Below are positions 31,689-64,000 of a stretch of 64,000 nucleotides of DNA, piece after piece. Under the pieces are notes generated by a model. The model made no database searches, was not told where the DNA came from, and saw only the letters and a list, made by a program, of their open reading frames with translations. This DNA is from Chloracidobacterium thermophilum B (lineage in GTDB: Bacteria > Acidobacteriota > Blastocatellia > Chloracidobacteriales > Chloracidobacteriaceae), in NCBI RefSeq assembly GCF_000226295.1, contig NC_016024.1:789501-853500 (forward strand). The letters are read 5' to 3'. The position numbers and the translations under genes were made by a program. Every line of letters starts with the position of its first letter. Positions within the stretch are counted from its first letter, which is position 1.

Positions 31689-33419
31689 ATGTTCTGCCCA
31701 AAGTGCGGTACTGAAAACCGTCCAAATGCTCGTTTCTGCAAAAGCTGTGGTCACGCTTTCGCCGGGGGTGGAGCCGGTGACTCAGCGCCGCTGACTGGCC
31801 CCCCGTCCATTCAGCAAACCTTTGTCATGCGTTCGGTCGGCCCTGATGACCCAGGGCGGACAAACGTCTCCCTGCCGGCTCTGGAAGTACAGCCGGAGAC
31901 CGCGCCGCCAGCCGGTCAAACCCTGGACAACGGCCATCACGGGGACGGTTTCATTCTGGGAGACATCTCTTCACCCAACCTGCGGCTGGATGCGCCACCA
32001 CCAAGCGCTCCTATTGGGCCGGAATCCATCCCAGACCTGTTTACAACGAACACTTCCACCCCGCAGTTTCCGCCAACGCTCATCCCACCGCCAGCCTCAT
32101 CCCCACTGCCGCCACCGGCAAGCGGTTTTTCCGTGCCCGATCCGTTGGCGACCAAGACGGGCACACCAGCAACTTCTCCGCCAACACCATCAACACCCAT
32201 CCCCCCCCCGCCAGCTTCATCCCCACTGCCGTCGGCAAGCGGTTTTTCCGTGCCTGATCCGTTGGCCAACCGAACGGGTACACCGGCAGGGGGAACACCA
32301 GTGGTTACGCCGCCAACCCCGCCGCTCAACCCGACGCCGCCCGGTGGAGTGCCACTTCCGCCAGAGTTGGCGGCTACCCCCTTTCGTCCGGTGGAACCGC
32401 CCGTTGGTGCGCCCCGTCCGATGGGGCGACAGCTCACGGAGATGCCAGCGCTGCCGCCCAAGCCACCGGCTGACCTCTTTGCCCAGACCACTCCGGCTGC
32501 GGCACCACCCCGCCGTACTGGCTTTCCGCTCTGGCTGGTCGTTGGGCTGTCGGTCGGAGCCATTGTGGTTTTGATTGGGATTGTAGCAGCCATTGCTTAC
32601 TTTCAGTGGGCTACGCCGTCTGTTCCGACGGGTTCCAGCGCACCAGCAGATACCCCGGTGACCAGCTCGGAACCCTCCACCCAACCCGCATCACCGGTGA
32701 AACCAGCCCAGCCGGTCATCCCTGAAAACATGATCGCTATCCCAGGAGGGGAGTACCTCATTGGACGCAACAGCGGTGATTTCCTCGACCCCTATGAAAA
32801 ACCGCAGCATACGGTGACATTGCGGCCGTTCTACATTGACCGGACCGAAGTCACCAACGCTGACTACCAGAAATTCATCGAGGCAACCGGGCATCCGGCC
32901 CCGGCTTCCTGGATTGGTGGGCGGTTTGAACCTGGCAAGGAACTGTTTCCGGTCACAGACATCACCTTGTCCGATGCCGAAGCCTATGCCCGCTGGGCCG
33001 GTAAGCGCCTGCCCACCGAAGAGGAATGGGAGGCGGCCGCCCACGGACGTACGCCAACGGTTTTCCCCTGGGGCAACACCTTTGATCCCAGCCGTGCCAA
33101 TGTCAAAGCCAGTGGTCTTGGTGTGCCGGTACGGGTTGGGACGTATCCGGCCGGCGCCAGTCCCTTTGGGGTGCTCGACATGACGGGCAATGTCTGGGAG
33201 TGGACAGCTTCAGAAGCCCGACTCTACCCCGGAAGCACCGAGAAACCACCGAGTTGGGACAAGCCGCTCAATCCCGGCACACGGTTGCAAATCATTCGGG
33301 GCGGAGCGTTTACGGAAGACACCAGGCGCTGCACCGTGACTTACCGCAACTGGGTCCCGTCGGACTTCAAGGCCCGTGAACTTGGCTTCCGCTGCGCCCA
33401 GGATCAGCCGCCACAGTGA
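31689..33419 (+). CDS. Zinc-ribbon, proline-rich, membrane-anchored FGE-sulfatase-domain protein
   Basis: A 576-residue protein. The N-terminus is a zinc ribbon (CPKCGTENRPNARFCKSCG). A long Pro/Thr-rich linker follows, containing a duplicated block SGFSVPDPLA. One transmembrane helix sits near 280-300 (LWLVVGLSVGAIVVLIGIV). The exported C-terminal domain belongs to the formylglycine-generating enzyme/SUMF1 group (NMIAIPGGEYLIGRN, FYIDRTEVTNADYQ, KRLPTEEEWEAAA, DMTGNVWEWT, LGFRCAQD). The cytosolic ribbon and external domain suggest a transmembrane signalling or modification role. Catalytic status is not clear. Confidence 0.87.
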   Translation: MFCPKCGTENRPNARFCKSCGHAFAGGGAGDSAPLTGPPSIQQTFVMRSVGPDDPGRTNVSLPALEVQPETAPPAGQTLDNGHHGDGFILGDISSPNLRLDAPPPSAPIGPESIPDLFTTNTSTPQFPPTLIPPPASSPLPPPASGFSVPDPLATKTGTPATSPPTPSTPIPPPPASSPLPSASGFSVPDPLANRTGTPAGGTPVVTPPTPPLNPTPPGGVPLPPELAATPFRPVEPPVGAPRPMGRQLTEMPALPPKPPADLFAQTTPAAAPPRRTGFPLWLVVGLSVGAIVVLIGIVAAIAYFQWATPSVPTGSSAPADTPVTSSEPSTQPASPVKPAQPVIPENMIAIPGGEYLIGRNSGDFLDPYEKPQHTVTLRPFYIDRTEVTNADYQKFIEATGHPAPASWIGGRFEPGKELFPVTDITLSDAEAYARWAGKRLPTEEEWEAAAHGRTPTVFPWGNTFDPSRANVKASGLGVPVRVGTYPAGASPFGVLDMTGNVWEWTASEARLYPGSTEKPPSWDKPLNPGTRLQIIRGGAFTEDTRRCTVTYRNWVPSDFKARELGFRCAQDQPPQ

Positions 33420-55073: not shown

Positions 55074-56582
55074 GTGGCCCGGTCATCCATAGCGTACGAA
55101 GCTCTCCGGCGGAGGCTCCTGCTGCTTTCCAGGTGGTTTTTGCTGTTGTATGCCGTGCTGGCACCCCACTCGATTGCCGGCGCGCAGGGCAGCGCCTTGG
55201 TGCTGGCCCTGCTGTGGGGGCTGGAACGGTGGTTGGCGGCTGGTGACACCTCGCTTCTGGCGCCGGCGTCCCGGCGACAGGAGGCCGCGCAGCGATGGTG
55301 GCCGCTGGCGTTTTTTTGGGCCCTATGTACCGTGTCGGCGCTGATGTCCTACGAGCCACGGTGGAGTCTGGATGGGCTGCGCAGCGTGGCCTTTATGGCC
55401 ACCTGTGGCATTGTGGCGTTCTGGGTGCAATCCCGCGCTCAGGCATGGTGTCTGGCGTGGACGCTGCTGCTTTCAGCCCAGGTCGGGTGGCTTTACACCG
55501 GGTATCAACTGCTGGTGGGGAATGGTGTGCGTCTGGTCGAACTCAGCCCTGACTCACCTCTGCATCCGTACTTTCAGCCTGGCGATGTCGTGCTGCGTGT
55601 GGATGGTGAAGTCGTCCGTACCCCGGAGGACATCACCCGCCTTGTTCTCCAGAAACCATTGCCTTCCAGCCAACCCGTGAGCGTGACCGGACGGCGCGTT
55701 GAGATACCACTTACGGCGCAGCTTGACCGGGCGGCACTTCAGACCCGTCTGGTGTTGTTGGGGTCGGCTGGGCTGGGCATTCGCGCCAGTGCGCCGGCGC
55801 GGGACTTTCGCGCCAGCGGTTTCTTTTCACACTACGTCACCTATGCCGAGGTGCTTCAGATTCTTGTTTCCCTGGCGCTTGGCATGGCCTGGTGCACTGT
55901 CGGACGCCAGCGCCGGTGGCTCTGGGGGTTGGCGCTGGGACTTATGCTGGCCCTGGGGCTGACGCTGTCCCGCGGCCCGACGGGCGGCCTCATTGTCAGC
56001 GTCGGCGTGATGCTGTATCTGCTGTGGCGGGAGGGCACAGTCAGTACGCCACGGGTGGTGATAGGGCTGGTAATTGCCGGCATCCTGCTGTCCAGTGCGT
56101 TGGCCTATGCCTACGCCATGCGCCACATGTCCGTAGTGGATGCCCGTGAAGGCAGTCTGTTCTGGCGGTTGGTGGTCTGGCAGGAAGGCATCGGGCTGGT
56201 GGCAAAACACCCCTGGTTTGGTATTGGGCGCTACAGCGACAAGCTGCACGCGGCAGAATGGGGACTGTACGCCCATGGCGATTTGCCGCCCGGCCACTTT
56301 CACAACACCTACCTGCAGGTGGCGGTGTGGTACGGGCTGCCGGCGCTGGCGGCCTATCTCTGGTTGCTGCTGACTTATGTCGGGCAACTGCTGCGGCGGC
56401 GGCGCGATGGCATTGCCTTGGGCGCGCTGGGCGCACTCACCGGCTTTGCGGCGAGCGGCATAGCCCACTTCAACCTGGGGGATGGTGAAGTGGCCATGGT
56501 GCTGTGGTTTGTGATAGGGATAGCGTTGGGGATGCCGGTCACAGCGGAGCCGGACTCTAGCTTGCCGTATAGTACGCGATAG
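55074..56582 (+). CDS. O-antigen ligase/polymerase-like membrane protein with PDZ-like insert, 3' end replaced by IS607
   Basis: About a 502-residue membrane protein of the O-antigen ligase type, with a dozen hydrophobic helices and the conserved large-loop pattern (LFWRLVVWQEGIGLVAKHPWFGIGRYSD and PPGHFHNTYLQVAVWYGLPALAA). Between helices, around residues 150-216 (55523-55720), lies a soluble segment resembling a PDZ domain (VRLVELSPDSPLHPYFQPGDVVLRVDGEVVRTPEDI). The start (GTG 55074) is uncertain. The last ~12 codons and stop come from IS607 copy 2, so the native C-terminus is lost, though the core appears complete. Confidence 0.85.
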   Translation: MARSSIAYEALRRRLLLLSRWFLLLYAVLAPHSIAGAQGSALVLALLWGLERWLAAGDTSLLAPASRRQEAAQRWWPLAFFWALCTVSALMSYEPRWSLDGLRSVAFMATCGIVAFWVQSRAQAWCLAWTLLLSAQVGWLYTGYQLLVGNGVRLVELSPDSPLHPYFQPGDVVLRVDGEVVRTPEDITRLVLQKPLPSSQPVSVTGRRVEIPLTAQLDRAALQTRLVLLGSAGLGIRASAPARDFRASGFFSHYVTYAEVLQILVSLALGMAWCTVGRQRRWLWGLALGLMLALGLTLSRGPTGGLIVSVGVMLYLLWREGTVSTPRVVIGLVIAGILLSSALAYAYAMRHMSVVDAREGSLFWRLVVWQEGIGLVAKHPWFGIGRYSDKLHAAEWGLYAHGDLPPGHFHNTYLQVAVWYGLPALAAYLWLLLTYVGQLLRRRRDGIALGALGALTGFAASGIAHFNLGDGEVAMVLWFVIGIALGMPVTAEPDSSLPYSTR

Positions 56583-56590
56583 TGTATAAT
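56562..56590 (+). promoter_or_regulatory. tnpA promoter, possibly leaderless (copy 2)
   Basis: TTGCCG, 17-bp spacer and TATAAT identical to copy 1; the native ATG lies 7 bp after the -10 element. It overlaps the reading frame of the upstream ligase gene. Confidence 0.6.
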
Positions 56591-57259
56591 AATGCTCATG
56601 GAAAGCACTATAAGCACAGGCAAGGCGGCAAAACTCCTTGGTGTCCCGGTCAAGACGTTGCAGCGTTGGGGACGTTGCAGCGTTGGGAACGCGAAGGAAG
56701 GCTGATTCCGGTGGCCCGAACGGACAGCAACCGCCGCCTCTACACTGAGACGCAGATCCGTGAGTTCATCGGTTTGCGGCAGGCCAACCATGCGCCAACA
56801 AAGCTTGTCGCCTACTGTCGGGTATCGAGTGCGGCGCAGAAGCCGGACCTGGCGAATCAGCGCAAAGTGCTGGAAGCGTTCGTGGTGGCGAAGGGATTGG
56901 CGGGGGTCGGGTTTATCGAGGAAGTGGGCAGCGGGCTGGACTTCAGGCGCAAGCGGTTTCTGGCCCTTATGGACGAGATCGGGCGACGGGAAGTCAGGAT
57001 GCTGATCCTCGCTCACCGGGACCGCCTCACCCGTTTCGGCTTTGAGTGGTTCGAACATTACGCCCAAACCCATGGCTGCGAAGTGCTGGTACTGAACCAG
57101 GAACGGCTGTCTCCCGAACAGGAAATGGTGCAAGACTTAATGGCCATCGTGCACTGTTTTTCGTCTCGGCTATACGGTTTGAGGAACTATCGAAAGAAGT
57201 TGGATGAAGCGCTGAAACAGGATGCGAATGACGTCAAAAAGGCCCAACAATGCAACTAA
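56582..57259 (+). CDS. tnpA: IS607-type serine transposase TnpA, N-terminus frameshifted (copy 2)
   Basis: Same structure as copy 1: native ATG at 56598 (MESTISTGK), 17-bp duplication breaking the frame, then an intact serine-recombinase domain (YCRVSS, AHRDRLTRFGF) in the other frame, open from GTG 56582. Six residue differences from copy 1 are visible (for example TQI for TQV, EAFVV for EEFVV, GSGLD for GGGLN). The shared duplication means the frameshift predates this copy. Confidence 0.85.
   Translation: MYNNAHGKHYKHRQGGKTPWCPGQDVAALGTLQRWEREGRLIPVARTDSNRRLYTETQIREFIGLRQANHAPTKLVAYCRVSSAAQKPDLANQRKVLEAFVVAKGLAGVGFIEEVGSGLDFRRKRFLALMDEIGRREVRMLILAHRDRLTRFGFEWFEHYAQTHGCEVLVLNQERLSPEQEMVQDLMAIVHCFSSRLYGLRNYRKKLDEALKQDANDVKKAQQCN
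56654..56687 (+). repeat. 17-bp tandem duplication disrupting tnpA (copy 2)
   Basis: Exact repeat GACGTTGCAGCGTTGGG twice, at the position corresponding to copy 1. Confidence 0.95.
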
Positions 57260-58590
57260 CCCACAAGATCGCTCTTTGTCCGACTCCTGAGCAAGTGGAC
57301 TACTTCAAGCGCGCCTGCGGCACGGCGCGGCGTGTTTGGAACTGGGCGCTCAATGAGTGGAACAGGCAATACGCGGCAGGCGGCAGGCCAAACGCCATGG
57401 CGCTCAAAAAACAGTTCAACGCCATCAAGTACACCGACCCGCAGTGGCTCGATGAGAACGGTCGGCCTTGGTTGCAGGACATTCACCGGGATGCCCACGC
57501 CCAGCCGTTCAGGAATCCCGCCAAAGCATGGGAACAGTTCTTCGCCGACCTCAAGGAGGGCAAAGAAGCGCACGAGCCACGGCTCAAGAAAAAGGGGCGT
57601 TGCCGCGACAGCTTTTATGTTGCCAACGACAAGTTCACCCTGGAAGGCAGGACGATCCGTCTGCCCAGGATCGGCGAAGTCGCCATGACCGAGGAACTGC
57701 GATTCAAAGGAAAGATACTGGGCGCAACGGTTTCCCGCACCGCGGATCGTTGGTTTGTGGCCATACAGGTCGAGGTGCCTGATGCGCAATTCTATCGGCG
57801 TCGCACGTCGCACGAGGTCAACGGCATCGACCTGGGCATCAAGGCTGCCGCAACGGTCTCCAGCGGTGAAGTCATCGAGGCGCCAAAGCCGCTCAAAGCA
57901 GCGCTGCGCCGTCTGGAAATCCGTAGCCGACGTCTCAGCCGCAAGCTGGAAGCCACCAGGAAGGCAGCCGGATTTGAACGCCCTGCCCGCCTGCCTGAAG
58001 GAACGCGCCTGCCGGTATCGAACAACCGGCAGAAGTCCGCTGCGATATTGGCAAGGCTCTATGCCCGCATTGCCAATATCCGAGCGGATTTCACCCACAA
58101 GCTCACGACTCGACTCTGCCGCGAAAACCAAGCGTTGGTGATCGAGGATTTAAACGTCAAAGGGATGCTGCAGAACGAGAAACTCGCCCGCGCCATCTCT
58201 GACGTGGGTTTTGGGATGTTGCGCTCGCAGTTGGAATACAAGGCCCGGCGCTGCGGTACTCATCTTACCATCGCTGATCGCTGGTATCCAGGCAGCCGAC
58301 TGTGCTCCATCTGTGGCTGGAAGAACGAGGCGCTGACATTGAGAGATCGAACATGGGTGTGTGCTCAATGTGGTGCGCACCATGACCGTGACCTCAATGC
58401 GGCGCTGAACCTGAAACGGCTGGCAACCGAAACTGCCCTACCCGTGGCGAGTCCGTCCAGCAATGGCGGCGCTGCGGCGGGGACCGTCCCCGCCGTAGTC
58501 GGGAAAGTCACGCCTGTCAGATACGACGGTGGTCAACAGGACACGTCGGGGCAGGAAGAGAACCGTGCGCACTTTTGCGCACATTCTTGA
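57250..58590 (+). CDS. tnpB: TnpB RNA-guided nuclease of IS607 (copy 2)
   Basis: A 446-residue TnpB with intact RuvC residues (GIDLGIKAA, VIEDLNVKGM, DRDLNAALN) and zinc finger (CSICGWK, CAQCG). Compared with copy 1 the C-terminal half is almost identical, while residues ~75-140 carry a cluster of changes (for example QPFRNPAKAWEQFFADLKEG versus QPFAHLAKAWERFFTDLKAG). Both ends align without gaps. Nuclease activity is expected. Confidence 0.93.
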   Translation: MQLTHKIALCPTPEQVDYFKRACGTARRVWNWALNEWNRQYAAGGRPNAMALKKQFNAIKYTDPQWLDENGRPWLQDIHRDAHAQPFRNPAKAWEQFFADLKEGKEAHEPRLKKKGRCRDSFYVANDKFTLEGRTIRLPRIGEVAMTEELRFKGKILGATVSRTADRWFVAIQVEVPDAQFYRRRTSHEVNGIDLGIKAAATVSSGEVIEAPKPLKAALRRLEIRSRRLSRKLEATRKAAGFERPARLPEGTRLPVSNNRQKSAAILARLYARIANIRADFTHKLTTRLCRENQALVIEDLNVKGMLQNEKLARAISDVGFGMLRSQLEYKARRCGTHLTIADRWYPGSRLCSICGWKNEALTLRDRTWVCAQCGAHHDRDLNAALNLKRLATETALPVASPSSNGGAAAGTVPAVVGKVTPVRYDGGQQDTSGQEENRAHFCAHS

Positions 58591-58596
58591 TAGCAG
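58448..58596 (+). ncRNA. Predicted omega-RNA scaffold at IS607 right end (copy 2)
   Basis: Same two hairpins as copy 1 (58475-58495 and 58565-58582). The guide read from the right flank would begin ATGGCAACCGATC, differing from copy 1. Ends are approximate. Confidence 0.4.
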
Positions 58597-58726
58597 ATGG
58601 CAACCGATCATCCGCTGTCCGGGCACAGGGGAGTTTCATCCGGGGAGCATTTTTCGTAGCATGCCGTGCCTATGGCCCCAGGGGCCGCATAACACAAAAA
58701 CGCTTTTTGAACGGTAGGAGCCAGGC

Positions 58727-59824
58727 GTGAAAATTCATTCGTGGTGGTTGTTGGCCGGCTGTGGTTTGGGCGTCGGCGCGGCGCTGCTTCCGCTGCCGGG
58801 AATGGTCGCTGACTGGCAGGTCGCGGCCCAGGAAGCAGTGGTGATTGATGAAACCCTGGCCAGCGTCAACAAGGAACTCATCACCCGCTCAATGCTGCGC
58901 CGGGCTGAGAATGCCCTGCGGCGTGATCTTCAGGAACAGTTCCCCAACGATCCGGCCAAGCAGGAAGAAATCTTCGCCCGTTTGCAGCCACGGCTGCTTG
59001 TCAGCCTGATTGATGAACGCCTGATTGCGCAGCGCGCCGAGGAAATGGGACTGCTGCCCGAAATCGAGGCCCAAGTCAACGCGACGATCCTTGAACTGTG
59101 CAAGCAGAACAACTTGGAAAACCTCGATGCCTGCCGCGCGGCTATGGAACGGCAGGGCCTGACGATGGAGGACATTCGGATGAGCTATCGCGGGCAGTTC
59201 CTGCGCCAGGCTGTCTATGGGCAGGATGTCTACAGCGTCCTCATCGAGCAGGTGACGAACCGCGAAGCCGAGGAATACTACCGCACCCATCCGGCTGATT
59301 TCACCGAGCCGGGAGAAATCGAGATCAGCGAAATCCACATTGGCTTCACGCCGGAGACTCAGGCGGCTGCCGAGGCGCGGGCGCGGCAGGCCCAGGCCGA
59401 ACTCAGAGCTGGCCAGCCCTTTGCCGAAGTCGCACGGAAGTTTTCCGACGAAAAACGGGCGTCGCGCGCCAATGGCGGCAAGCTGCCGCCCTACAAGGAC
59501 AACCAGTTGGCCGAGGCCTTCCGGGCCGAACTCGACAAACTCAAGCCCGGTGAGGTGACGCCCATCCTGAAGCTGGAAAAGGCGTATCAGATTCTCCGGC
59601 TCGATGCCCGCCGTCCGCCTTCGGTCAAGCCCTTTGCCGAAGTGCGCGATCTGGTCAAACGTCTGATTGCGCAGCAGCGCGCCGAAGCCAAAATCCGGGA
59701 ATACATGCGCGGTTTGCGGGCCAAGGCGCTTATTCGCCTGGCCGAGCCGTACCGGAACGCTCTCATCGAAGCCGAAAAGGCCGAAGAAGCCGAAGCGGCC
59801 GAGGGCGGCAAGAAAAACGGCTAG
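58727..59824 (+). CDS. SurA-like parvulin-type peptidyl-prolyl isomerase
   Basis: A 365-residue exported protein with a signal peptide (WLLAGCGLGVGAALLPLPG), a SurA-type N-terminal helical chaperone region (LASVNKELITRSMLRR), a parvulin domain (EIEISEIHIGFTPETQ, FAEVARKFSDEKRASRANGGKLPPY) and a Lys/Ala-rich tail. It likely helps fold outer-membrane proteins. GTG 58727 has AGGAG 7 bp upstream. The 130 bp after IS607 copy 2 are non-coding. Confidence 0.92.
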   Translation: MKIHSWWLLAGCGLGVGAALLPLPGMVADWQVAAQEAVVIDETLASVNKELITRSMLRRAENALRRDLQEQFPNDPAKQEEIFARLQPRLLVSLIDERLIAQRAEEMGLLPEIEAQVNATILELCKQNNLENLDACRAAMERQGLTMEDIRMSYRGQFLRQAVYGQDVYSVLIEQVTNREAEEYYRTHPADFTEPGEIEISEIHIGFTPETQAAAEARARQAQAELRAGQPFAEVARKFSDEKRASRANGGKLPPYKDNQLAEAFRAELDKLKPGEVTPILKLEKAYQILRLDARRPPSVKPFAEVRDLVKRLIAQQRAEAKIREYMRGLRAKALIRLAEPYRNALIEAEKAEEAEAAEGGKKNG

Positions 59825-59915
59825 TTTGTCTTTCTGCCAAAACAGACATCTCCCGTTTACTCCGTTGAGAGCAGTGGGGAGACCGTCTCCTTCGCGCATA
59901 AGCATTGGCTGTCAA

Positions 59916-59963
59916 AGTACGTTTGAGTACATTGTTGAGTACCTGTGGCAGGCGGCATAGATT
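59916..59963 (+). promoter_or_regulatory. Candidate promoter with three phased AGTAC sites
   Basis: TTGAGT (59935-59940), 17-bp spacer, TAGATT (59958-59963). Upstream and overlapping, AGTAC occurs three times (59916, 59926, 59938), at 10- and 12-bp intervals, on about the same face of the helix, like an operator array. Confidence 0.4.
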
Positions 59964-59969
59964 GGAAAC

Positions 59970-61730
59970 ATGTCCTCCCTACCTTTGTCATCAAGTGAGC
60001 CGCCTATGCCGACTGCGCTCGATCCGCCACCGTCCACGCTGGATAACGCCGCCATGAACAAAAGACTTGGGGATTACCTCAAAGCCTACGGCGCGCCATT
60101 GCCATCCCAGGAAGCCCTTGACCTCTTTCTGGGGATGGCGCGCATTGTCCATGGCATGCACGAACAGTTTGCCTTCTATGGTCAGGAGTTGCGGTTTGAC
60201 AACGTGATCCTGAGCGCGGAGCAGCCGCCACGTGTCCTTGATTGCGGTGTTCCTCAATCCCGGCTGTCCGCCAAGTCACCTACGCCGGAGGATGTCGCCC
60301 AAGGTATCCGCCGGGATATTCACCAATTGGGCATGATGCTGTACCAGATGGTGACGGGCCAGCCGGTGCCGGAGCGGCACGCCACGCACAACTTTCGTAC
60401 GGATTTCGACGAGACCTCTGACCTGCTGCCAGTGCCGGACCCGCGGACGGTCAACCCGGCGGTCTCCGTGGAAATTGCCCGTCTGGTCGCCAAAGCCACG
60501 GCCCGCGACGCGCAAAGCCGGGCAAAAAGTATCGGGGAGTTGTTGGCTCTGCTGGAGCCGTCACCGGATGCGACACCGGAGGAGACAGCAAAGGTGCAAT
60601 CGGCCTCACTCGTGCCGGCCGCATCCGCGCCAGCTGAGCCTGGACAGGCGTCTGAGGCAAGCCCGCCGGTGCGCCGGGAGGCCAGAGTGACCCTCGCCAA
60701 GCGGTCTCTGCCGGTAGTTTCCGAACGCACGGGCTTTGTCGTCAATGAAGCCGCCGTCAAGCGGGATACTCCGGCTGTGACGCCAGCGCCGCCGGCCACG
60801 CTGGTGGAAGGGCTTGCCCAGGCCTTTGCGGATTTGAGCGGGACAGGAGAGCGTCCAACCGGCAGGGGCTTCAAGTTCTTCGTGGCTGGCATGAGTTGCC
60901 TGTTGCTGCTGGTCGTGAGCCTGATCACGTACCGGATCGTCGAGAAGTTCTTTCTGGGTGGCGGGACTGGCGTGGCAACGCGCCCCACGGTGGAAGCCCT
61001 GCGGAGTAAGAGCGAAACGTCCAACCGTCCGATCTTTACTCCAACGCCTGCGCCGGATGATACCCGCGCCCTGCTGCCGGCACTTGTGGCCGTCAAAGGG
61101 GGATCGTTTGAGATGGGCAGCCGTGATGGGCAGCCGGATGAGCAGCCGGTGCACCGGGTGACACTCTCCGACTTTGAGATTGGCAAGTATGAAGTCACGA
61201 ACGCCCAGTACAAGGCGTTCTGTGACGCCACCGGCCGTCCCTATCCCGAAGAACCGAACTTTGCCCGGCTGCGCAACTACTTTCTGGACTATCCCCATCA
61301 TCCGGTGGTGCGGGTGAGTTGGGATGATGCCAACGCCTACTGCGTCTGGCTGAGTGAACGGACGGGAGACCTCTACCGCTTACCGACGGAAGCTGAATGG
61401 GAATATGTTGCCCGCAACAGCCCGATTGGCTGGGACAGCTACCATAGTGGCGGCGCACCGCATGAGGTCGGAACCAGCCCCCCCAACGAACTGGGGATTT
61501 ATGACCTGATGGGCAATGTGTGGGAATGGTGCGCCGACTGGTACGGCTCCTATCCAGCCGAACCGCAGACGAATCCGAAAGGTCCACCGCGTGGCACGCA
61601 TAAGGTGCTGCGGGGGTGTTCGTGGTATTTTAGCACCGTGCCGTGCCGTCCGACTTCGCGGTTTCGGTTCGACCCGACGTTGAATTACTGGTTCAACGGG
61701 GGCTTTCGTGTTGTCCGGGCCAAGCACTGA
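59970..61730 (+). CDS. Degenerate kinase-like domain fused to a membrane-anchored FGE-sulfatase domain
   Basis: A 586-residue protein. Residues ~40-215 resemble only the C-lobe of a Ser/Thr kinase (QELRFDNVILSAEQPPRVLDCGVPQS, RDIHQLGMMLYQMVTGQPVP, ARLVAKATARDAQSRAKSIGELLALL), but the HRD motif is missing and DFG is replaced by DCG, so it is a pseudokinase. A linker and one membrane helix follow (MSCLLLLVVSLITYRIV, about 310-325). The exported C-terminus is a formylglycine-generating-enzyme-like domain (VKGGSFEMGSRDGQPDEQPVH, YRLPTEAEWEYVA, LMGNVWEWCADWYG). Later starts at 60006 or 60054 are possible. Confidence 0.87.
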   Translation: MSSLPLSSSEPPMPTALDPPPSTLDNAAMNKRLGDYLKAYGAPLPSQEALDLFLGMARIVHGMHEQFAFYGQELRFDNVILSAEQPPRVLDCGVPQSRLSAKSPTPEDVAQGIRRDIHQLGMMLYQMVTGQPVPERHATHNFRTDFDETSDLLPVPDPRTVNPAVSVEIARLVAKATARDAQSRAKSIGELLALLEPSPDATPEETAKVQSASLVPAASAPAEPGQASEASPPVRREARVTLAKRSLPVVSERTGFVVNEAAVKRDTPAVTPAPPATLVEGLAQAFADLSGTGERPTGRGFKFFVAGMSCLLLLVVSLITYRIVEKFFLGGGTGVATRPTVEALRSKSETSNRPIFTPTPAPDDTRALLPALVAVKGGSFEMGSRDGQPDEQPVHRVTLSDFEIGKYEVTNAQYKAFCDATGRPYPEEPNFARLRNYFLDYPHHPVVRVSWDDANAYCVWLSERTGDLYRLPTEAEWEYVARNSPIGWDSYHSGGAPHEVGTSPPNELGIYDLMGNVWEWCADWYGSYPAEPQTNPKGPPRGTHKVLRGCSWYFSTVPCRPTSRFRFDPTLNYWFNGGFRVVRAKH

Positions 61731-61816
61731 GCCTTCAGACATCGAACAGAAGGCACTGGAAGCGGCTGCGAACGTCGGGCTGGGGCAGTATCAATCAATC
61801 TTCGCTGAAGGGTTTT

Positions 61817-63331
61817 ATGGGACTCTTTGACCACGTCCGAAGTGCGCGGGAGCAGGTGTCGAATATCCAGGATACTTCGGCACTGGTGGCTTCGATTGAG
61901 CAGTGCGAACGCATCCTGCAGGCTGATCCCAAGCACCTTCCGACCTTGCTGGAGCTGGGACGGCTCTACCAGGAACACGGCCAGACCCAAAAAGCCTGCG
62001 ATGTGTTTTGTCGGGCCGGTGAAATTGCTGTTGAGCGCAACGATACGGAGCAGGCGCTGGTCAGCTACCGCAAGGCCGAACGGCTGGCAGCAGGCGATCT
62101 GCGGGTTGAGCTGTGGCACAAGCTGTTTTATCTCAGCTACAAGCTGCGTCGCATGGAGGAGGCTTTCGAGCGGGCCAAGCAGATCGTCGAAACCCTTGTG
62201 GAACGTGGCAACACGAAGCGGGCTGCCAACTTTGTCTCCGCCATGCCGGACTTGGGAGCCAAGGATGCCGAATACCGGCAAATCCTCGAAGCCATGGCCG
62301 GGGTTGTGCCGCGCCAGACGGGTGCAACTGGAACGGCTGTTGGCACCTGGCGGCGGGCAACCTCCGGCCAACGGAGCGCTGATGAGTACTTTCCGGGACA
62401 GACCATCCTGATTGTGGATGACGAGCCGGAGTTGCTGGAAATCCTCGAATCATCCCTGCGGACGCTTGGCGCACGCATCATCACGGCCGCAAACGGTCAC
62501 ATAGCCTGCGAAAAGGTCAAGAAGTACGCGCCTTCGCTCATCATCAGTGACCTCGCCATGCCGGGCATGGATGGCAGCCAGTTCTTTGAGTGGGTGAAGT
62601 CACAACCCGAACACGCGCGGGTGCCCTTTATCTGCCTGTCTTCGATTGGCTCAGAGGCAGAACGTGTCGCCGCCTTTGAGATGGGCGTCGAGGACTACTG
62701 GACCAAACCCTTTCATCCGACGGAAATCCGCTACCGCGTCAAGCATCTGCTGCGGCGTCTGCGGCGGCCCGTGGATTTTCAGGGCAAGCTGTCCCAGGTC
62801 AACCTCGCTGAAATCATCCAGATTCTGGAGTCCGGCCGCCGTACGGGATTGCTGACCATCGAATCCGGTGCAGAGCAGGCGTACCTGTACTTCCGGGATG
62901 GCTTCATCCTCAATGCCGAGTGTGGAAACCTCGCCGGGGAGCGGGCGGTGTTTCATCTGGTGGGCTGGACCAGCGGTGATTTTGCCTTCTGCACCATGCC
63001 GATGATGCGTGAAAAGGTCATTCAACTGAGTCCACAGCAGTTGTTGATGGAAGCCTTCCGGCGCTTTGATGAAGCCGAGCGCGTGTTGTCGTCCCTGCCA
63101 AACCAGCATGAAGTGTTCGTCTGTCGGCCGGGATTTGAAAAGGCCCCGGAAGTGGCCGAACAGTTGGCGCAGGGGGGCGAATTCGTTGCCAACCTGGAGA
63201 CCATTCGGCAGCTTTTCGACGGCACCCGCACGTTGGAAGCCTGTTGTCAAGTGTTGCGTGATGACCTGGAAACGCTGCTTCTCGTGCGTGAACTCATTGA
63301 CCGCAAGTTACTCGTGCCACGCTCAGGGTAA
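61817..63331 (+). CDS. TPR-receiver-DUF4388 signalling protein
   Basis: A 504-residue protein. The N-terminal ~170 residues have tetratricopeptide-like helices (LLELGRLYQEHGQTQKACDVF, ALVSYRKAERLAAG). A response-regulator receiver follows (ILIVDDEPELLE; phospho-acceptor Asp245 in SDLAMPGMDG; Lys in YWTKPF), then a C-terminal DUF4388/PATAN domain (GKLSQVNLAEIIQILESGRRTGLLTIESG). PATAN receivers act in gliding, motility and surface-response control. Start 61817 (MGLFDHVRS) is supported by the paralogue just downstream. Confidence 0.9.
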   Translation: MGLFDHVRSAREQVSNIQDTSALVASIEQCERILQADPKHLPTLLELGRLYQEHGQTQKACDVFCRAGEIAVERNDTEQALVSYRKAERLAAGDLRVELWHKLFYLSYKLRRMEEAFERAKQIVETLVERGNTKRAANFVSAMPDLGAKDAEYRQILEAMAGVVPRQTGATGTAVGTWRRATSGQRSADEYFPGQTILIVDDEPELLEILESSLRTLGARIITAANGHIACEKVKKYAPSLIISDLAMPGMDGSQFFEWVKSQPEHARVPFICLSSIGSEAERVAAFEMGVEDYWTKPFHPTEIRYRVKHLLRRLRRPVDFQGKLSQVNLAEIIQILESGRRTGLLTIESGAEQAYLYFRDGFILNAECGNLAGERAVFHLVGWTSGDFAFCTMPMMREKVIQLSPQQLLMEAFRRFDEAERVLSSLPNQHEVFVCRPGFEKAPEVAEQLAQGGEFVANLETIRQLFDGTRTLEACCQVLRDDLETLLLVRELIDRKLLVPRSG

Positions 63332-63481
63332 GGGTAGCTCGTGGCTGCCAGATTGTGGCACGATGGGGACTGATCGTTTCAAAGCCATACCTTCACCTAT
63401 CCTTTGACCTGTTTTTCAGTCTGTTGACGACCGCAGTGCCGCTTTCCCCGGCGTTGTACCAAGGTGACATTCGAGGTTGCC

Positions 63482-64000
63482 ATGGGACTGTTTGATCGGA
63501 TTCTGAATGCCCGCGCACAAGTGACCAACCTGCTTGACAATGCCAAGCTCAACAGCGCCATCGAGCGTCACGAGCGTGAACTCGAACGCGACCCCGACAA
63601 CCTGGGTGCTTTGCAGGAGCTGGGGTTGCTGTATCAGGAGCGCGGTGAGCCGCAAAAAGCCTGTGAGGTGATGCTGCGGGCGGCGACAATTTATTTTGAT
63701 CGTCTGGATTTCGAGCAGGGAATGCTTCTGTGCCGCAAGGCGGAGCGGCTGGCTTCCGGGGAAACCCGGCTCGATGTCTGGCGCAAGCTGTTCGAGATCA
63801 ACCATCGCCTGCGTCGGTATGACGACGCCTTCGGACGCGCCAAACAGATTGTCGAACACCTGATGGAGCTGGGCGAAACAGCGCGCGCGGCGGACTTTGT
63901 CAACCTGATGCCAGACTTGGGGCCGAAAGACATTCTCTACCGCCGGGAACTCAAGCTGCTGGCCGGTCTCGAAGCCGACAACGTCGCCACGGTCGGACAG
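63482..64000 (+). CDS. TPR-receiver protein paralogue (incomplete at window end)
   Basis: 173 residues are visible: MGLFDRILNARAQVTN and TPR-like helices (LGALQELGLLYQERGEPQKACEV, LLCRKAERLASGETRLDVWRKLFEI, RAADFVNLMPDLGPKD) closely parallel the preceding gene, which implies a tandem duplication. The rest, presumably a receiver or DUF4388 part, is outside the window. GAGG precedes the ATG by about 6 bp. The 150-bp gap between the two shows nothing distinctive. Confidence 0.82.
   Translation, partial: MGLFDRILNARAQVTNLLDNAKLNSAIERHERELERDPDNLGALQELGLLYQERGEPQKACEVMLRAATIYFDRLDFEQGMLLCRKAERLASGETRLDVWRKLFEINHRLRRYDDAFGRAKQIVEHLMELGETARAADFVNLMPDLGPKDILYRRELKLLAGLEADNVATVGQ

Follow-up and report, generated by a model that had tools for sequence, protein, structure and literature searches.

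A protein encoded at positions 60006-61730 of the 64,000-nucleotide stretch of Chloracidobacterium thermophilum DNA analysed here (the window; source genome of 3,695,372 bases in two contigs) raises the question of what a membrane protein does with part of a kinase that looks catalytically dead. The first-pass annotation had described it as a pseudokinase joined across the membrane to an FGE-like domain. Of that description the kinase C-lobe, the broken motifs, the transmembrane (TM) segment and the FGE-like domain all stand, while two features had been missed: the kinase N-lobe is absent altogether, and the first FGE cysteine is lost.

Gene start and protein layout

The reading frame at 59970-61730 on the forward strand is open and encodes 586 aa, with an in-frame TAG four codons 5' of its ATG. 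A start at 60006 (Met13 of the frame, MPTAL...), giving a protein of 574 aa, is likely because the alignments of all seven orthologues from the genus, this one included, begin there, because the nearest orthologue (L019) has no Met where 59970 falls, and because the other five diverge before 60006. The layout of the protein, with residues counted from 60006, is as follows.

60006..61730, + strand: half-pseudokinase-TM-FGE protein, likely 574 aa (586 aa if the start is at 59970)
60060..60560, + strand: kinase C-lobe remnant, residues 19-185 (hhalign, hmmsearch, dN/dS)
60177..60212, + strand: catalytic-loop remnant YGQELRFDNVIL, canonically HRDLKPEN... (kinase alignments)
60240..60248, + strand: DCG replacing DFG (8/8 orthologues)
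60708..60752, + strand: conserved motif LPVVSERTGFVVNEA in an otherwise variable cytosolic linker (orthologue alignment)
60819..60869, + strand: conserved cytosolic juxtamembrane segment QAFADLSGTGE.PTG.G (orthologue alignment)
60876..60938, + strand: TM helix, about residues 291-311 (hydropathy)
61077..61727, + strand: outer FGE-like (C-type-lectin-fold) domain, residues 358-574 (Pfam FGE-sulfatase, E 1.2e-52)
61629..61646, + strand: FGE cysteine-pair site, Phe542 and Cys547 (phmmer alignment to human FGE)

Hydropathy agrees with the single TM segment first proposed, and the Pfam match confirms the FGE-like nature of the outer part. Arg and Lys residues on the N-terminal side of the helix suggest an N-in orientation.

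The cytosolic part is homologous to the kinase C-lobe

Single-sequence matches to kinases were weak for Pfam Pkinase (E 0.0031, under the curated cut-off) and better for NCBIfam PknB_PASTA (E 5.8e-7). When a profile of seven orthologues was run against the PDB, its positions 21-186 matched StkP at E 3e-6, and when eight orthologues were compared by hhalign with 28 kinases from the source genome, the probability was 99.4 and the E value 2.7e-21. In the hhalign alignment residues 19-176 correspond to kinase columns 85-259 of 263, and hmmsearch coverage was 85-257 of 258. Scored with the kinase profile, the eight real N-terminal parts reached 37.7-45.7 bits. Among 2000 shuffled sequences, of which 1243 returned a score at all, the maximum was 5.3 bits, and the eight reversed copies all fell below zero. 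The kinase C-lobe features first noticed in the N-terminal region are therefore genuine by these profile comparisons, and the cytosolic part is, on the same alignments, homologous to Ser/Thr kinases over the C-lobe only. The remnant comprises alphaD/E, a degenerate catalytic loop, the DCG, a shortened activation segment and the alphaF-alphaI region.

AlphaFold prediction from four alignment rows returned a mean pLDDT of 39 for residues 1-193 and 32 for the whole protein. Because the certain FGE domain was modelled badly as well, these low values are uninformative on the fold of the half-kinase. Helices at 15-27, 35-54, 94-117 and 155-172 of this poor model (pLDDT 39) correspond approximately to alphaD, E, F and H when read against the alignment, and a Foldseek search with the model gave nothing below E 1 (best E 1.1, Nek7). 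An isolated kinase C-lobe may not fold alone. PADLOC reported PD-T4-6, PglW, mad6 and MkoA; all of these matches lie on the kinase part, and we took them for kinase similarity only. A plasmid collection held no relative of the N-terminal part.

The N-lobe is missing and the catalytic motifs are broken

Most pseudokinases retain both lobes of the domain and have lost only the function of their motifs. Here, the first 84 kinase columns, which hold the glycine loop, the beta3 Lys and the alphaC Glu, have no aligned residues in any of the eight orthologues. A six-frame search of 1.5 kb upstream of the gene at eight loci recovered no N-lobe (best E 2.4), and the same search recovered it at 4/4 intact control loci (E 3.5e-11 to 1.4e-36), which rules out an unannotated upstream N-lobe or a wrong start. 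A degenerate whole kinase domain is likewise ruled out: with the N-lobe missing altogether, the region is not bilobal. A separate N-lobe gene acting in trans is unlikely: a Pkinase search of the genome at E 0.001 gave 41 matches, none of which covers N-lobe columns only, and the shortest spans positions 74-151. A lone N-lobe too weak for this threshold would have escaped the search.

In what remains, the motifs have decayed. The place of HRDLKP is taken by G[QSR]ELR[FVI] in the seven orthologues from the genus and by YEDLTI in G007, a genome from another genus of the same family. The loss of HRD proposed from the single sequence thus extends to all eight orthologues, G007 retaining its catalytic Asp alone (YED), and the proposed change of DFG to DCG is equally general. 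Compared with kinases, the activation segment lacks some 14 residues. Speaking against a purely non-catalytic role, some catalytic-type residues do remain: the Asp and Gly of DCG in 8/8, an Asn at the metal-binding place in the seven genus orthologues, and the Asp of YED in G007. Glycine loop, beta3 Lys, alphaC Glu, HRD and DFG, the marks of an active Hanks-type kinase, are all wanting, so that, to judge from the residues left, the half-kinase should be unable to do kinase chemistry or bind ATP. At the sequence level, kinase homology with lost catalytic motifs makes the protein a pseudokinase, within the C-lobe columns only.

The outer domain is FGE-like and has lost the first catalytic cysteine

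In canonical FGE the catalytic Cys pair, C-x4-C, binds copper. Human FGE matches the outer domain with a phmmer E value of about 1e-26, and we take Cys336 and Cys341 to be the catalytic cysteines in human numbering. Cys336 falls on Phe542 in the phmmer alignment, and Cys341 on Cys547 by ungapped counting. The Phe is shared by the seven genus orthologues and G007. On this alignment the outer domain, although homologous to human SUMF1 and bacterial FGE, is FGE-like and not a canonical FGE, because the first catalytic Cys has been replaced by Phe. The Cys-pair pattern that we used was held by none of the 47 FGE ORFs examined.

That the outer domain might nonetheless be catalytically active, as a cofactor-dependent or metal-dependent enzyme belonging to the wider FGE/EgtB/PvdO group and regulated by the inner half, is a reading that we consider highly improbable. 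It could draw on NCBIfam matches to the PvdO, EgtB and GldK profiles, but these lie far under their cut-offs; and while none of the five outer-domain cysteines, which include Cys538 and Cys547, varies across seven genomes, the Phe at the first FGE cysteine and the lack of a DinB-type iron-site domain in the Pfam results speak against it. In all likelihood this is a further case of an FGE-like outer domain serving as a binding head and not as an FGE enzyme.

In the portions of PMC10907252, PMC7159879 and PMC4605624 available to us, FGE-type domains occur among DGR targets and in conflict systems and are proposed to be sensors or effectors. The DGR-diversified FGE/C-type-lectin sensors of PMC10907252, as far as that portion describes them, share with our protein the use of an FGE-type domain as a binding scaffold and putative sensor; they are hypervariable, however, whereas the outer domain here is almost invariant. 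A search of the source genome for reverse transcriptase (RVT_1, E 0.001) gave no match, with 3 of 14 control genomes positive, so the outer domain is not a DGR target, and a DGR-diversified variable protein is ruled out on both counts.

Intact relatives in the same genome

The source genome gave 15 FGE matches, corresponding to 13 genes: four with an intact kinase, a TM segment and FGE, the half-kinase gene, one Zn-ribbon-TM-FGE gene, one short TM-FGE gene, five exported or lipoprotein forms and one EgtB-like gene, the last three types (seven genes) being read by eye from sequence and hydropathy. The search for active-kinase versions of the architecture that had been advised was thus rewarded within the same genome, with four proteins whose catalytic motifs are intact (C1:2428907, 2494344, 1759047 and 1046279), each with a hydropathy-predicted TM segment. 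They share the TM segment and outer FGE-like domain with the half-kinase protein, in the same cell, but unlike it have a complete kinase domain in which G-loop, beta3 Lys, HRD and DFG are all present. The half-kinase protein itself belongs to the kinase-TM-FGE class by its kinase-type part, one TM segment and C-terminal FGE-like domain, with a kinase reduced to the C-lobe and a predicted sidedness.

The Zn-ribbon protein had also been pointed out from the sequence as a second membrane-anchored FGE protein, and its domain matches and TM segment uphold this.

31689..33419, + strand: Zn-ribbon-TM-FGE protein (Zn_Ribbon_1 E 5.8e-8, FGE E 1.1e-52)

It consists of a Zn ribbon (residues 2-23), a Pro-rich linker, a TM segment at about 277-297 and an FGE-like domain at 346-570. 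Orthologues are present in 7/7 genus genomes and in G007; in four of these genomes the alignment breaks into two pieces that belong to a single open frame. Kinase, half-kinase and Zn ribbon among 13 genes bear out the early suggestion that different cytosolic modules are attached to FGE-like domains; the further suggestion, that these modules control or report the outer domain, is conjectural.

Across 47 FGE ORFs, some of which are fragments or overlapping copies, a kinase match was seen in 25: eight half-kinase proteins, matching from position 85 or 87 to about 255, and 17 proteins matching from position 1. The beta3 Lys, alphaC Glu, HRD and DFG are present in all 17. These loci are not a random sample, because they were picked by their similarity to the half-kinase protein. 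A tree built from 42 FGE domains places the half-kinase proteins in a single clade (support 100/100); in the branches around this clade, FGE domains linked to a kinase are intermingled with FGE domains that have none. Five rows were excluded beforehand: the EgtB-like protein, two partial FGE proteins, an overlapping copy and L047, a kinase-FGE protein of the source genome whose FGE domain is degenerate. The simple reading of these data would be that the half-kinase protein descends from a kinase-TM-FGE protein that lost its N-lobe. As a separate observation, an ORF on the second contig of the source genome (L139:815-2578; C2, 437814-439577) aligns to the kinase profile from position 33 and has HGRL for HRDL and GYG for DFG; from its sequence it is a probable further pseudokinase.

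The presence of four intact relatives, whose shared outer domain type makes co-assembly thinkable, would suit a dominant-negative or allosteric partner that forms hetero-oligomers with an active kinase-TM-FGE protein through the outer domains. We judge this decidedly unlikely. In the FGE tree, three of the source genome's four active kinases are placed away from the half-kinase clade (the fourth, L047, being excluded). In addition, for the MviN/ActPs3 back-to-back dimer, which the accessible part of PMC12599244 likens to the dimer of canonical bacterial kinases, the family-specific residues are in the N-lobe, and the N-lobe is absent here.

Distribution

The half-kinase protein occurs in 7/7 genomes of the genus, the six others being 75-90% identical to that of the source genome, and G007 carries it over the whole length (E 2e-238). 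Two more genomes of the family, G008 and G009, gave a match to the FGE part only. Outside the genus and G007, the best profile E value was 1.8e-10 among 162 genomes of the class (first 19 candidates per genome) and 1.2e-14 among 396 genomes of the phylum (first 8 candidates per genome). None of the eight weak-match loci that were opened held a half-kinase: seven encode a whole kinase and one (L123) a split kinase. A contig pattern scan recovered three relatives, all near.

Two side observations concern these genomes. In L123 (phylum genome G308) the kinase is split by a frame change into overlapping N-lobe and C-lobe ORFs, which is probably an assembly error or a pseudogene. FGE-domain matches at E 1e-20 or better number 21 in G008 and 17 in G009, genomes of 8.3-8.4 Mb, and the opened loci with a kinase-FGE fusion with HRD and DFG intact number six and three, respectively.

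The half-kinase is under purifying selection

Nei-Gojobori estimates of dN/dS for the C-lobe were 0.137, 0.056 and 0.110 in three pairs (dS 0.35, 1.54 and 0.52), with the dS 1.54 pair near saturation and a fourth pair saturated. For the FGE-like domain four pairs gave 0.02-0.08 (dS exceeded 1.5 in two of them), and for the linker at residues 186-222 the range was 0.21-2.0. Mean pairwise identity is 0.78 for the C-lobe, 0.25 for linker 186-222, 0.79 for the linker motif columns 223-255 and 0.92 for the FGE-like domain, which is the best conserved part of the protein (186 of 222 alignment columns invariant over seven genomes). Since its dN/dS is 0.06-0.14, the C-lobe is, by this measure, under purifying selection and kept. 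Selection and occurrence in two genera together rule out recent decay of the half-kinase.

These values bear on the view that the outer FGE-like domain does the work, by binding or by other chemistry, and that the half-kinase is an inherited anchor or stabiliser with no part in signalling. The FGE-like domain does exceed the C-lobe in identity and has the lower dN/dS, and the same genome has exported FGE-like proteins without a cytosolic part. Yet the C-lobe is far more constrained than the neighbouring linker, it contains lineage-specific invariant residues across two genera, and some 165 conserved residues are more than a mere anchor needs. We regard the anchor view as rather unlikely.

The residues in question are T.NFR and PDPR, between alphaF and alphaH, invariant in the eight orthologues and not in the 28 kinases; the column-by-column comparison covered the alphaF-alphaH stretch. 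This region of kinases is a frequent docking site for partners. The lineage-specific invariance hints at docking, and is suggestive only because one stretch was compared and because the orthologue set is small, with seven of its eight sequences from one genus. Separately, LPVVSERTGFVVNEA (60708-60752) places an invariant Ser/Thr inside the fast-changing cytosolic linker and is possibly a docking or phosphorylation site.

A candidate receptor or scaffold that docks through a C-lobe

The reading that we prefer, and to which we give about an even chance from the sequence comparisons, is a single-pass membrane receptor or scaffold that would descend from the kinase-TM-FGE family, having shed the N-lobe, and whose C-lobe would dock a cytosolic partner. 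The outer FGE-like domain would bind a ligand or an envelope partner on a scaffold of the C-type-lectin type; the TM helix would pass the outer state (occupancy, clustering or localisation) to the cytosol; and the C-lobe, without ATP binding, would offer its alphaF-alphaG surface, together with the conserved linker motif, as a docking platform. The most probable partners would be either the TPR-receiver-DUF4388 proteins, whose genes follow directly downstream, or an active kinase from this family. More tentatively, and short of an even chance, the freed C-lobe could be a stand-alone selected interaction module, a 'half-pseudokinase' scaffold that reads the outer lectin-like domain and, transferring no phosphate itself, feeds an output through TPR-receiver-PATAN proteins, possibly one affecting surface behaviour or type IV pili.

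If true, a conserved, selected C-lobe without an N-lobe would mean that the C-lobe alone is usable as a docking module, and the intact-kinase relatives in the same cell would offer a natural comparison for working out the role of such a receptor when catalysis is absent.

Chlamydia Pkn1 may be a kinase-FGE relative, but the portion of the review PMC5177608 available to us has no mention of FGE, and we give it no weight. Kinases with a periplasmic FGE-type domain are common in Planctomycetota according to the accessible sections of PMC11032199, and these single-spanning Ser/Thr kinases share with our protein a membrane kinase and an FGE-type domain that is mostly outside. They are listed there as kinases, however, whereas the half-kinase protein has no N-lobe and broken catalytic motifs, and the word pseudokinase is absent from the text. 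As far as those sections go, the kinase-TM-FGE architecture is already known, and what is new is a conserved form without the N-lobe. The bacterial pseudokinase families ActPs1-3, GLW, CP1, DLHK, DYD and EssB/YukC, as described in the excerpts of PMC12599244, are similarly non-catalytic and several are membrane-anchored C-terminal to the domain, but they keep the kinase domain with motif changes or local deletions, and those excerpts mention no loss of the N-lobe; 'sulfatase' and 'formylglycine' are absent from the text. No published half-kinase or N-lobe-less FGE receptor was found in the open-access literature, part of which was represented by excerpts.

Gene neighbourhood

Three genes lie next to or near the half-kinase gene.

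58727..59824, + strand: SurA/parvulin-type peptidyl-prolyl isomerase (PPIase), upstream, probably exported (Pfam)
61817..63331, + strand: TPR, response-regulator receiver and DUF4388 gene, downstream, adjoining the half-kinase gene in 7/7 genus genomes
63482..64000, + strand: second receiver/DUF4388 gene with weak TPR matches, extending beyond the window end

Both receiver/DUF4388 genes lie directly 3' of the half-kinase gene in all seven genus genomes, with a gap of 72-86 bases to the first at the four loci measured. The PPIase gene is 5' in 3/4 neighbourhoods, and is absent among the ORFs listed for L095. In G007, different genes flank the half-kinase gene and the receiver/DUF4388 homologue is on another contig. 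Because the G007 flanks differ, the link between neighbours is genus-wide at most, and the adjacency may be shared gene order only. We take DUF4388 to be the PATAN domain. In the part of PMC7690835 at hand, PATAN response regulators are tied to pilus motors in cyanobacteria; by analogy, a link between the half-kinase protein and type IV pili would be a lead only, and it is unsupported by G007, where the flanks are different.

Rfam models at the gathering score gave no match in 56500-64000. Between the O-antigen-ligase and PPIase genes, at 56582-58590, lies an IS607-like pair, read by eye as a recombinase whose beginning is of the MerR type, plus a TnpB-like protein; missing from the L094 and L096 neighbourhoods, the pair is present in the source genome.
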